DNA from: Bacteriovoracaceae bacterium
GTDB taxonomy: Bacteria > Bdellovibrionota > Bacteriovoracia > Bacteriovoracales > Bacteriovoracaceae
Length of the DNA stretch: 37,278 nucleotides
NCBI GenBank assembly: GCA_021732585.1
Contig: JAKFUR010000071.1
Span: 1 to 37,278 of the forward strand
Direction: 5' to 3'
Shown here: positions 6,252 through 13,358 of the stretch, one piece after another
How the letters are laid out: each line of letters opens with the position of its first letter
Position numbering within the stretch: position 1 is the first letter of the stretch
The notes under the pieces: model-generated
What the model was told of the DNA's origin: nothing
Seen by the model: only the letters and a program-made list of their open reading frames with translations
Database searches by the model: none
Position numbers and translations under genes: made by a program

Positions 6252-6767
6252 CTACTCATCCCCAACTTTCACCACGACTGTTCCCGCTGCGATGTCATGC
6301 AGGCCACGCTTCTTTTTATTGAACGCCACCATGTAGGCGCCAATGCCCAAGGTGAGCGGCCACAGGAACCCTTTGCCCACAACTTCTCGCAAGAAGGCAC
6401 GCCAAGCTGGTGGGTTCTTGTCAGTGTCCGCCATACGGATGCGTAGACCCAAAGCGAGCTTACCGGGTGTGCCACCTTTAACAGAAATAAAGTAGAGGGT
6501 GGCAGCCATCGTTAACAAGAGAAAGAACCCTGTGGCCAAGAAGGTTCCTGTTTCGTGAAAGATTCTCATGGAGGCGCCAAAGAGTTCGGCGGGCCCGCCG
6601 CCTTCTTGGGCGATTTTCTGCAGCATCTGTTGTTCAGCGTCTGTCGGCTCACGCATGATGCCGGCCACATTCAGCACGAAGCCAATCGCCATGCGGAAAA
6701 TTCCAAACAGAATAGCATCAATGATGAGCGCGAGAACGCGGATCCAAAACCCAGCGGGCTGATTCAT
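6252..6767 (-). CDS. RDD family membrane protein
   Basis: PAGFWIRVLALIIDAILF and GGTPGKLALGLRI...PPAWRAFLREVVGK are RDD-family hallmarks. Confidence 0.9.
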   Translation of the reverse strand: MNQPAGFWIRVLALIIDAILFGIFRMAIGFVLNVAGIMREPTDAEQQMLQKIAQEGGGPAELFGASMRIFHETGTFLATGFFLLLTMAATLYFISVKGGTPGKLALGLRIRMADTDKNPPAWRAFLREVVGKGFLWPLTLGIGAYMVAFNKKKRGLHDIAAGTVVVKVGDE

Positions 6768-6802
6768 GAGGGACTCCTTAGTCCCTCAATTATAGTGCGG
6801 AA

Positions 6803-8104
6803 TTATCTCGGAAGGAATTGATTGTCTTCGTCACCGTTGACGCCCATCAGGTAAGTGTCTTCTTCGCCATTTGAGGCTTCAATACGGTTCATGATGTTTT
6901 GCCAGCTGGTCAAATGACCACTGAGGAAAGGAGTCAAGAAAGCCAGCATGTTGCTTTCAGAAGTTGAGGTGAGCGTAGGAAGGCCCGCAGTGATGATTTC
7001 TAGATTGCGACTGCCGCCGGGTTTGCTATTGAAGTAGTTCTGATTAAAGTACGGATACGAGCTGCAACCATTGAAGAAAAATATTTGGTAATTTCGATTA
7101 AATGAGAAGACCGGCAGATTATTAAGGTCGAGATTACCCCCAAGACCTGAGTGACCATCATAAGCGACGAGGTCCGCGTACTGATAGGCACTCACCAAGT
7201 GCTGATGAAAAGTCGCATCAATATTATCCGGCTCTGTTTCACTCAAGAGCAAAGTGAGTTCAAGTTTAACCGTTTGCCCGAGCTGTGTTTGCACTTCACC
7301 CTCGAAGCGCGCACGGTTGTTCACGCCGCCGGTTGATTCACGGCCATTGCTGGCCGTTTTAAATTGCTTCTTCTCTTCTTTGAGTTTGAGGCCGAGCTGC
7401 GGCAAACTTTCACGCAGACTGCGATAGGTGCCAGCGCCGATATCACGATTACTGGTGTTATTGATATAGCCAATGAAGATGGAAGCCTTCAAAGTCTCTT
7501 TGCCATAAAGGCGATCGTACTCAGGGTAAGTGGTCGTGGTGTTCGCCAGTTTTTCTAATGTGCCTTTAATGCGTAATACGTCTGTCTTGTTGCCCTTAAG
7601 CGGGCAGCCCTCTTTATCGGGATCCCAGAAATAGAAAAAGTCGCCAGCAGCATTATAGTGGTCATCCGTACAACGGTTTTTGCCACGAACAACACCGAGA
7701 TCATAGATGGCTTCTGGGTCGAGCGGTAGATTAAGAGGGACAGTAGTTTTATCACTGCTTCTAAAAACGTTGCGGTGATAGTTCACCTTACCTTCGAAGC
7801 GATAACGAACTTCCACGGCGCCTGCCAAGGCAGCTTCGCGCGTAAGAATGACTTTGTAGTTTTGTCCCAAGACGCCGGGGTACTTGTAGCTCGCGAGAAA
7901 CGTCGGGGCCTGGAAATGACCAATGAGATGTTGAACTTGCCCATCGATGGCTTCGCGTTTTTGTGTCGTCGTGAGACCGGGAGCTAACAGAATTTTGCCT
8001 TCAAAGCGCAAGATCGCTTCGGTGGATTTACCACCGTAGTACTTGTCCTGAGCGTGGACAGGAGAGAGTGCCCCTAGGATCAGCGCGAGGATGAAGATTT
8101 TCAT
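6803..8104 (-). CDS. Secreted protein with caspase-like (clan CD) His/Cys motifs, putative cysteine peptidase
   Basis: Signal peptide MKIFILALILGALSPVHA (start trimmed from 8185); YADLVAYDGHSG and IFFFNGCSSYPYF followed by LEIITAG resemble the clan CD His-Gly / Cys layout. Confidence 0.6.
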   Translation of the reverse strand: MKIFILALILGALSPVHAQDKYYGGKSTEAILRFEGKILLAPGLTTTQKREAIDGQVQHLIGHFQAPTFLASYKYPGVLGQNYKVILTREAALAGAVEVRYRFEGKVNYHRNVFRSSDKTTVPLNLPLDPEAIYDLGVVRGKNRCTDDHYNAAGDFFYFWDPDKEGCPLKGNKTDVLRIKGTLEKLANTTTTYPEYDRLYGKETLKASIFIGYINNTSNRDIGAGTYRSLRESLPQLGLKLKEEKKQFKTASNGRESTGGVNNRARFEGEVQTQLGQTVKLELTLLLSETEPDNIDATFHQHLVSAYQYADLVAYDGHSGLGGNLDLNNLPVFSFNRNYQIFFFNGCSSYPYFNQNYFNSKPGGSRNLEIITAGLPTLTSTSESNMLAFLTPFLSGHLTSWQNIMNRIEASNGEEDTYLMGVNGDEDNQFLPR

Positions 8105-11628: not shown

Positions 11629-11946
11629 ATGTGGGCCTGGGGCATGTTGTTATTGGCAGGATTGTTCGAAGTGGCATGGGCTTACTATCTCAAGGCGTCG
11701 CAGGGCCTCTCCTTGCTTATCCCTACACTTCTCTTTGTTGTGACGCTCTCAATCAGTATGGGACTACTCGGATTTTCGGTTCGTACCATCCCGCTGGGCG
11801 TCGCCTATCCGGTTTGGACGGGAGTGGGGGCGGTTGGTTCTGTGGTGGTAGGCAGTTTGCTTTTCGCAGAACCCCTAAGTGCAATGAAAGTGCTCTTCCT
11901 AGGATTCATCGTGGTGGGGATCGTCGGTCTTAAGGCCGTGAGTTAG
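11629..11946 (+). CDS. SMR-family transporter, SugE/Gdx-like
   Basis: 105 aa, four TM segments; LAGLFEVAWAYYLKAS and GVAYPVWTGVGAVGSVVVG typical of SMR. Whether it exports guanidinium cannot be read from sequence alone. Confidence 0.88.
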   Translation: MWAWGMLLLAGLFEVAWAYYLKASQGLSLLIPTLLFVVTLSISMGLLGFSVRTIPLGVAYPVWTGVGAVGSVVVGSLLFAEPLSAMKVLFLGFIVVGIVGLKAVS

Positions 11947-12218
11947 TCCACCAACGCGACAAGATCCGTGACGTCTGAGAGCTCGTCTTCAGTCATGTCC
12001 CAATCCATCGCCTCCATCATGGCAACGGCTTCTTGATCAAGGGCCGCATTGCGATTCTGCACGTTGATGGTCACGATCACCGCCACAGCAACAGCTGCAC
12101 TGGCCGTGAGTGGCAACCACCATGAGCGGGCAGTTGGCGCCTTGAGTGGGCGAGGGGAGGCGAGCACCGGTTTGTGTTCACGCATGAAGTGATCGAGTTT
12201 TTCAAATTCATTTTTCAT
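11943..12218 (-). CDS. Small single-TM protein, putative anti-sigma factor
   Basis: 91 aa, one TM segment (LTASAAVAVAVIVTI), ATGA overlap with the upstream ECF sigma gene. Confidence 0.6.
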   Translation of the reverse strand: MKNEFEKLDHFMREHKPVLASPRPLKAPTARSWWLPLTASAAVAVAVIVTINVQNRNAALDQEAVAMMEAMDWDMTEDELSDVTDLVALVD

Positions 12219-12715
12219 ACAGTAAATCCTTTCGCAACGAGCTTGGGACGAAGTTTTCCTTTGGCAGTAAACAAACGGGATTTCACGGTGCCCTGGGGAA
12301 TGCCGAGAATCTTCGCGATCTCGTTCAAATCCAAATCCTCATAATAGTGCAGTATCAACAAGGCCCGTGGCTCTTCTTCTAATTCGAGTAACGCTTCTTT
12401 TACCGCGCGGGTTTCAGGAGTCTCACCTTCCGCCGCATTAAGCGAATCAGGATCAAGCGCGACAAAAGTCTTTCCGCCATGACCGCGTAACCAATCTCTC
12501 GCGGTATTGAGGGCCACAGTATAAACCCAGGTCTTCAAGGTGCTTTTGAACGCAAACGTGGGCAGCGCTTTCCATGCTTTGATAAAAGCATCTTGCGTGA
12601 GTTCTTCGGCGACATGATGATTTCCGCCGACCATCCCCTGCAAGAAACGTCGTACGCCCCCTGCTTGGGAGGCGTAGAGCGCTTGAAAGGCTTCTTCGCT
12701 CTTAGAAATGATCAT
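12215..12715 (-). CDS. ECF-type RNA polymerase sigma factor (sigma-70 family)
   Basis: Region 2 (AEELTQDAFIKAWKALPTF...TWVYTVALNTARDWLR) and region 4 (LHYYEDLDLNEIAKILGIPQGTVKSRLFTAKGKLR). Confidence 0.95.
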   Translation of the reverse strand: MIISKSEEAFQALYASQAGGVRRFLQGMVGGNHHVAEELTQDAFIKAWKALPTFAFKSTLKTWVYTVALNTARDWLRGHGGKTFVALDPDSLNAAEGETPETRAVKEALLELEEEPRALLILHYYEDLDLNEIAKILGIPQGTVKSRLFTAKGKLRPKLVAKGFTV

Positions 12716-12718
12716 GGA

Positions 12719-13174
12719 CTATTCCATATCTCCGTCGACTTCCTTGTCATGTTTCTTACGACGTTTTTCAAATTTCTCGCGGAACATCTTTCGTTTTTCG
12801 TGAAACTTCGCTCGTTGAGATTCATTCAATAAAGAGCGGATCTCGAGCATGGTTTCAAATCCACCACGGTGATGAGCCGCTTGCGCTGTTTGTAATTCTT
12901 CAAACTTCGTCTTCAATTCATCGTTGCTCGCTTTCGGATTTCTTACCGTAGAATGGAAGGCTTCACGGGCTGCCTTCACTTTAGCTCGCGCTTCTCTTTG
13001 GTTCTCTTTTTTCTTCTTACGAATCTCTTTCATTTTTGCGAGTTGCTCATCTGAAAGACCGAGCTCCTTGCGCATCTGTTCTCCGCGCTTTTCGCCTTCT
13101 TTCTTCTTGCTCGCGCCTGCGAAGGCTACTGAGGTCACCAGTATGAGGGCCATAAATAACGATAGATTCTTCAT
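12719..13174 (-). CDS. Spy/CpxP/CnrX-like periplasmic protein (LTxxQ-like repeats)
   Basis: Signal peptide MKNLSLFMALILVTSVAFA; helical charged body with LSDEQLAKM and LLNESQRAKF motifs. Confidence 0.75.
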   Translation of the reverse strand: MKNLSLFMALILVTSVAFAGASKKKEGEKRGEQMRKELGLSDEQLAKMKEIRKKKKENQREARAKVKAAREAFHSTVRNPKASNDELKTKFEELQTAQAAHHRGGFETMLEIRSLLNESQRAKFHEKRKMFREKFEKRRKKHDKEVDGDME

Positions 13175-13218
13175 TCGGTTCTCCTTGGTGGTGCCTCATC
13201 AAAAGACACTCATACCCC

Positions 13219-13247
13219 TTAGACGTAGGATAAGGCCGAAAGGTTCA
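13219..13247 (-). promoter_or_regulatory. ECF-sigma-type promoter upstream of the spy-like/ECF/anti-sigma operon
   Basis: Reverse strand TGAACCT (13247-13241) - 15 nt - CGTCTAA (13225-13219), an AAC-type -35 and CGTC-type -10. Confidence 0.75.
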
Positions 13248-13358
13248 CGGGCCTAGAAACTAAATAAAAACGGGTAGTTAACCACCATGGCCGAGAGAAC
13301 TGTTTTTGACGCATAAAGGCATAAATCTCCATGTCTTCCAGGAAATGTGAATGCACTG

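Follow-up and report, generated by a model that had tools for sequence, protein, structure and literature searches.

A conserved operon of an LTXXQ protein, an ECF sigma factor and a putative anti-sigma factor in two classes of Bdellovibrionota

Gene layout and products of the operon

The window, that is, the whole stretch of 37,278 nucleotides that was analysed, carries on its minus strand three tightly packed genes preceded by an ECF-type promoter. The original prediction had described them as an autoregulated sigma factor module, and every feature was found where it had been placed:

13241..13247, minus strand: -35 element TGAACCT of the ECF-type promoter (exact match)
13226-13240, minus strand: promoter spacer of 15 nt between TGAACCT and CGTCTAA
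13219..13225, minus strand: -10 element CGTCTAA (exact match)
13181..13186, minus strand: ribosome-binding site AAGGAG of the LTXXQ gene (sequence reading)
12719-13174, minus strand: LTXXQ protein (Spy/CpxP-like, periplasmic), 151 aa (Pfam, profile and fold match)
12215-12715, minus strand: ECF sigma factor, 166 aa (Sigma70_r2 and Sigma70_r4_2 in Pfam)
11943-12218, minus strand: putative anti-sigma factor, 91 aa (position, topology, below-cut-off NCBIfam match)

The LTXXQ gene is separated from the sigma gene by 3 nt, and the stop codon of the latter overlaps the ATG of the 91-aa gene by 4 nt (ATGA). A gene for a small multidrug resistance (SMR) transporter on the plus strand (11629-11946) converges on the anti-sigma gene, with a 4-nt overlap at its end; the sister genome G002 lacks it at the corresponding position (L015).

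The sigma factor matches the NCBIfam sigma70-ECF superfamily above cut-off, as well as SigW and RpoE in the PDB. It is short and consists of regions 2 and 4 only, as is characteristic of ECF (group IV) factors, and a published ECF group number for it may already exist.

The proposal that the first gene encodes a Spy/CnrX-like periplasmic protein was upheld by Pfam (LTXXQ at 2.6e-9 and Metal_resist at 4.1e-8, both above gathering), by a profile match to Spy (3oeo, 2e-7) and by the predicted fold: an AlphaFold model built from two sequences (pLDDT 77) was nearest to NccX, CpxP, Spy and CnrX, with probabilities of about 1, although the E-values range from 0.01 to 0.3. The protein is basic, its signal peptide ends in AFA, and its LTXXQ-type motifs read LSDEQ and LNESQ. 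Inspection of the signal peptides by eye revealed Ala conserved at positions 17 (66%) and 19 (80%), a pattern typical of cleavage, and the protein may be soluble rather than membrane-anchored. A pair of histidines (AAHHRGG) had been taken as a hint of metal binding, a suggestion that did not survive the comparison: the pair is present in the window protein but common only to the closest sister species, the best His column reaches 42% of the 50 homologues, with a Phe in the window protein at that position, and no conserved set of His, Met or Cys ligands was found in the alignment of the 50 homologues. On this alignment, the idea of a metal site at the His pair was rejected, and a CnrX-type site is unsupported because no set of columns with conserved metal ligands is present.

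The 91-aa protein consists of a short cytoplasmic N-terminus, one transmembrane helix and an acidic C-terminal tail lying outside, with a net charge of -10. The same topology is shared by all 49 complete homologues (mean charge -8.3), and the zinc motif HxxxCxxC is present in none of the 49, so that the family falls outside the class I zinc anti-sigma (ZAS) proteins; for the 91-aa protein itself, both the absence of this motif and the acidic tail had been noted in the original prediction. NCBIfam gives the protein a weak anti-sigma match, below cut-off, and searches of Pfam, NCBIfam and solved structures yielded no significant match of the family to a solved or curated anti-sigma factor, nor was any sequence match to CnrY found for the 91-aa protein, whose structural model is a two-helix one of low confidence. 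The gene always lies directly downstream of the sigma gene, usually overlapping it, and the pairwise distances within the family track those of the sigma factor (r=0.73, permuted maximum 0.17), a correlation that partly reflects shared descent. Given its position and topology, and by analogy with CnrY and AabA (see below), the protein is inferred to be an anti-sigma factor, of class II and CnrY/AabA-like.

Distribution of the triple and its promoter

The triple was found at 50 loci in 49 genomes, representing 25 genera and two classes of the phylum (24 genomes in the class of the window and 25 in the second one), and the order LTXXQ gene, sigma gene, 91-aa-type gene is constant in the 50 loci. 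Among 80 sigma matches in genome contigs, 79 belong to different ECF factors, in whose vicinity no homologue of the LTXXQ or the 91-aa protein was found; the remaining one (L015) lies on a contig identical to L003, from G002.

The predicted promoter sequence was confirmed both in the window and by its recurrence. The exact pattern TGAACCT-N15-CGTCTAA (13247-13219) occurs once in the window, never in 100 shuffles, and only at this site in the 2.58-Mb draft genome, where a search for 16S gave no match; transcription of the LTXXQ gene would be expected to start about 5-10 nt downstream of CGTCTAA. When a stretch of 150 nt preceding the LTXXQ gene was scanned at the 50 loci with spacers from 10 to 25, GAAC-N17-[CA]GTCnAA (n being T or C) was present in 40, compared with an average of 0.015 in shuffled upstream regions. 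The distance from GAAC to CGTC is fixed at 17 nt, apart from one locus with 16, and no other spacer between 10 and 25 was found in the 50 loci; CGTCTAA with identical spacing is present in 36 of them. Around GAAC, which is itself fixed by the search pattern, the 40 loci have a T before it in 39 cases and, at the two positions after it, a C in 32 and a T in 31. Several of the ten other loci carry near matches, and one (L115) is truncated by the contig end. The element is absent from all 11 LTXXQ homologues without an adjoining sigma gene that served as a control. Within the class of the window, the exact site is found in 19 of the 24 genomes with the triple and in 5 of the 105 without it (p 6e-14, a value that, like that of the RND comparison below, overstates independence because genomes of the same genus are related). 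The recurrence of the triple together with its promoter is far beyond chance.

Two genomes depart from this arrangement in that an LTXXQ gene carries the promoter element and the sigma gene is not adjacent. In G003 (L005/L154, G003:C1), the LTXXQ gene and the promoter, with CGTCTCA as its -10 element, are retained and the sigma and anti-sigma genes are gone; the orthologous sigma gene was not found anywhere in this draft genome. In G031, the orthologous sigma gene is present, but on a different contig from the LTXXQ gene. In a third genome (L200, G083:C43, around 4612), the triple is lost and an intact promoter and ribosome-binding site precede a short remnant. These three states have the appearance of stages of loss. 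Immediately upstream of the relic in G083 are CusBA-like genes. The genus to which the relic belongs (g58; L182, L184, L189, L200) also encodes, directly upstream of the triple's promoter, a secreted protein that is conserved and some 162 aa long. G003 contains, in addition, a further ECF sigma gene (L203, G003:C78), divergent from a pair encoding a lipoprotein and a short LTXXQ protein; the region between them has ECF-like sites of the GAAACT type on either strand.

Candidate efflux targets and the Bdellovibrio bacteriovorus counterpart

A genome-wide scan for the promoter pattern, proposed along with the original prediction, yielded, in the window's own genome, the exact site once and, with a looser pattern, a site at a contig end that is followed after 19 nt by a TolC-type gene (G000:C13:33021-33048). 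In the sister genome G002, the same site precedes a TolC-MFP-MacB set of genes; its boxes are identical to those in the window's own genome and its spacer has diverged. In G094, a second sensor-sigma-anti-sigma set and the TolC-MFP-MacB genes point away from each other, and each side has its promoter. At this locus (L198, G094:C5), a small secreted Cys-containing protein is encoded between the ECF promoter and TolC-MFP-MacB (6740-6976, minus strand); it is similar to an N-terminal extension, likewise containing Cys, that the LTXXQ proteins of this genus carry (L007, L106, L107). The triple of genus g5 is directly followed by TolC and an RND permease; close to this cluster (L178, L191) are genes for an apparent Cu-type P-type ATPase and an apparent MerR/CueR-like regulator, a hint of a possible copper link in this genus. 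Among the Bdellovibrio genomes, an RND multidrug permease is preceded by the exact promoter in 8 of 10 that have the triple and in none of 14 that lack it (p 6e-5, with the overstated independence mentioned above), the count being one of promoter-permease pairs; in B. bacteriovorus, this promoter lies near position 1,086,940. The promoter is associated with pumps of the MacB or the multidrug (HAE) RND type, not of the CusA/CzcA type, and for most genomes in the class of the window the search gave no such promoter in front of a pump. Judging from these promoters, the conserved targets outside the operon appear to be tripartite efflux pumps.

The regulon would be small, because exact sites genome-wide exceed a reversed-pattern control only modestly (29 vs 16 and 26 vs 19). 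A search for GAAC-N17-CGTCTAA in 28 genomes placed the sites outside the operon mostly inside genes, and a large regulon was rejected. Sites with two mismatches were also discarded: in the window's own genome they are no more numerous than in the reversed control, and one shared with G004 was taken as chance, as neither an LTXXQ gene nor an orthologous sigma gene was detected in that genome.

A link that had been missed by the original prediction is that to B. bacteriovorus. Locus L206 contains exact matches to all four published bd0881 primers, and the module is therefore the counterpart of bd0880-bd0881-bd0882: the three genes, their order, the promoter (TGAACCT-N15-CGTCTAA in L206) and the spacing are all as in the window. 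All three proteins of L206 are recovered by the profiles of their families, at 1.4e-24, 1.6e-46 and 1.4e-11, the last being a 102-aa single-TM protein, and the L206 sigma factor has the published length of 162 aa. Bd0882 and the 91-aa protein are members of one protein family. Lambert et al. (2012, PMC3464611) showed by RT-PCR that bd0880, bd0881 and bd0882 are co-transcribed and that a bd0881 mutant preys more slowly; the effects that they described concern predation efficiency and fliC5, not efflux. In the same work, bd0882 was considered unique to Bdellovibrio, without homologues and not an anti-sigma gene, a typical anti-sigma gene was said to be missing, and classical RpoE promoters were reported to be lacking, whereas bd0882 emerges here as a member of a widespread family, and the promoter of the operon can be read. 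Bd0880 has been named a CpxP homologue (PMC5941755), and bd0881 expression is specific to the attack phase (PMC3627812).

Candidate mechanism, alternatives and related systems

These observations can be integrated in a model in which the triple is probably a sensor-sigma-anti-sigma switch of the CnrYXH/SigAb kind, controlling both itself and an efflux pump. Autoregulation and the anti-sigma activity of the 91-aa protein are suggested by conservation: the three genes would form one transcription unit, activated by its own sigma factor from TGAACCT-N15-CGTCTAA. In unstressed cells, the cytoplasmic N-terminus of the 91-aa protein would hold the sigma factor at the inner membrane, and the basic, apparently soluble Spy/CpxP-like protein would report the state of the envelope, most likely through the acidic tail of 30-45 residues. 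Envelope damage or a toxic compound would release the sigma factor, raising the expression of its own operon and of a small regulon whose conserved member may be the TolC-MFP-MacB pump in the window's genus and the RND pump in Bdellovibrio, and the additional Spy-like protein and anti-sigma factor would then close the loop. A more specific version, which is rather doubtful as it stands, is that the Spy-like protein maintains inhibition by sitting as a chaperone on the acidic, client-like tail, until misfolded proteins or membrane-active compounds pull it off, with the induction of multidrug efflux and of the chaperone itself; if so, these predatory bacteria would sense envelope damage, and not metal, through a sigma module. 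The complementarity of charge between the LTXXQ protein and the tail was rejected as evidence of binding: the two charges are uncorrelated over the loci (r=-0.04), and although the basic charge of the LTXXQ protein is conserved, orphan LTXXQ proteins are equally basic.

The original prediction held a metal or an envelope-stress system to be plausible, and of the two the envelope reading is favoured. That the periplasmic protein is a CnrX/NccX-like sensor, freeing the sigma factor when it binds Ni, Co, Cu or Zn, is unlikely: the predicted fold is as near to NccX/CnrX as to CpxP/Spy, Metal_resist is matched in Pfam, SigAb responds to copper (PMC12153292) and the triple-TolC-RND cluster of genus g5 has the copper-type neighbours mentioned above, but a set of conserved ligands is lacking (the top His column, at 42% of 50, being absent from the window protein), AAHHRGG is limited to two sister species, the protein may be soluble, unlike the membrane-anchored CnrX, and the pumps are not of the type of CusA or CzcA. 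Another notion, conceivable though doubtful, makes the Spy-like protein a mere output of an anti-sigma factor that senses by itself, for instance when its acidic tail is cleaved by regulated proteolysis. In enterobacteria, Spy, CpxP and ZraP are indeed stress-induced outputs; the LTXXQ gene is promoter-proximal, and those of G003 and G031 have the promoter without an adjacent sigma gene; however, the LTXXQ gene is strictly retained beside the sigma gene in two classes, and AabB, the periplasmic protein of the SigAb system, itself has anti-sigma activity (PMC12153292). It seems very improbable that the 91-aa protein is a small membrane effector and that the sigma factor is controlled by transcription alone, for instance within an attack-phase programme. 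Such a role would agree with the absence of a profile match to known anti-sigma domains and with the attack-phase expression of bd0881 (PMC3627812), but not with a gene always placed directly after the sigma gene and usually overlapping it, a topology that is the same in 49 of 49 homologues, a short cytoplasmic part that suits class II anti-sigma factors, and the co-divergence with the sigma factor (r=0.73).

As a switch, the module would belong to a kind of system already known from CnrYXH and SigAb, and part of the family has been studied as bd0880-bd0882. As far as could be searched, what appears to be new is that members of the bd0882 family are put forward as candidate anti-sigma factors, together with the promoter, its conservation in two classes and the link to MacB-/RND-type efflux. 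For Bd0881, which affects predation efficiency, this supplies what had been described as missing: Bd0882 as a candidate anti-sigma factor, Bd0880 as a candidate sensor, a precisely defined promoter and, in the RND pump, a first candidate for a direct target. The findings also suggest that control of efflux by a sensor, a sigma factor and an anti-sigma factor, for which metal resistance has been the main example, is ancient and widespread in the phylum.

The likeness to CnrYXH stood, together with the autoregulated module as such, and extends to efflux pumps with the same promoter. The CnrYXH/NccYXH systems of Cupriavidus metallidurans likewise combine a periplasmic LTXXQ-fold sensor, an ECF sigma factor and a short single-TM non-zinc anti-sigma factor, and in both cases ECF promoters lie in front of the operon as well as of a transenvelope efflux pump, those of the present family being recognised by their sequence. 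The gene order of CnrYXH/NccYXH is, in contrast, anti-sigma, sensor, sigma, whereas that of the 50 loci is sensor, sigma, anti-sigma; the sensor of the present family apparently has a cleavable signal peptide and no conserved metal ligands, and the pumps, MacB- or HAE-type RND, lie mostly outside the operon. The LTXXQ gene also belongs, by Pfam, profile and fold, to the family of the enterobacterial Spy, CpxP and ZraP, which serve the two-component systems CpxAR, BaeSR and ZraSR and not an ECF sigma factor. In Acinetobacter baumannii, SigAb-AabA-AabB is similarly an autoregulated ECF sigma factor with a periplasmic helical partner and a tiny direct regulon, and both the TM protein and the periplasmic partner repress their sigma factor (PMC12153292). 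AabA, a 107-aa single-TM CnrY-like anti-sigma factor, is comparable to the 91-aa protein in its described architecture. SigAb differs in its gene order (sigma, TM protein, periplasmic protein), in that efflux pumps are only indirect targets, and in having been called Acinetobacter-specific (PMC12153292). Finally, an uncharacterised operon of Azospirillum brasilense (PMC12826043) encodes RpoE8, a hypothetical protein and a periplasmic heavy metal sensor, the same kinds of product by name in a different order.
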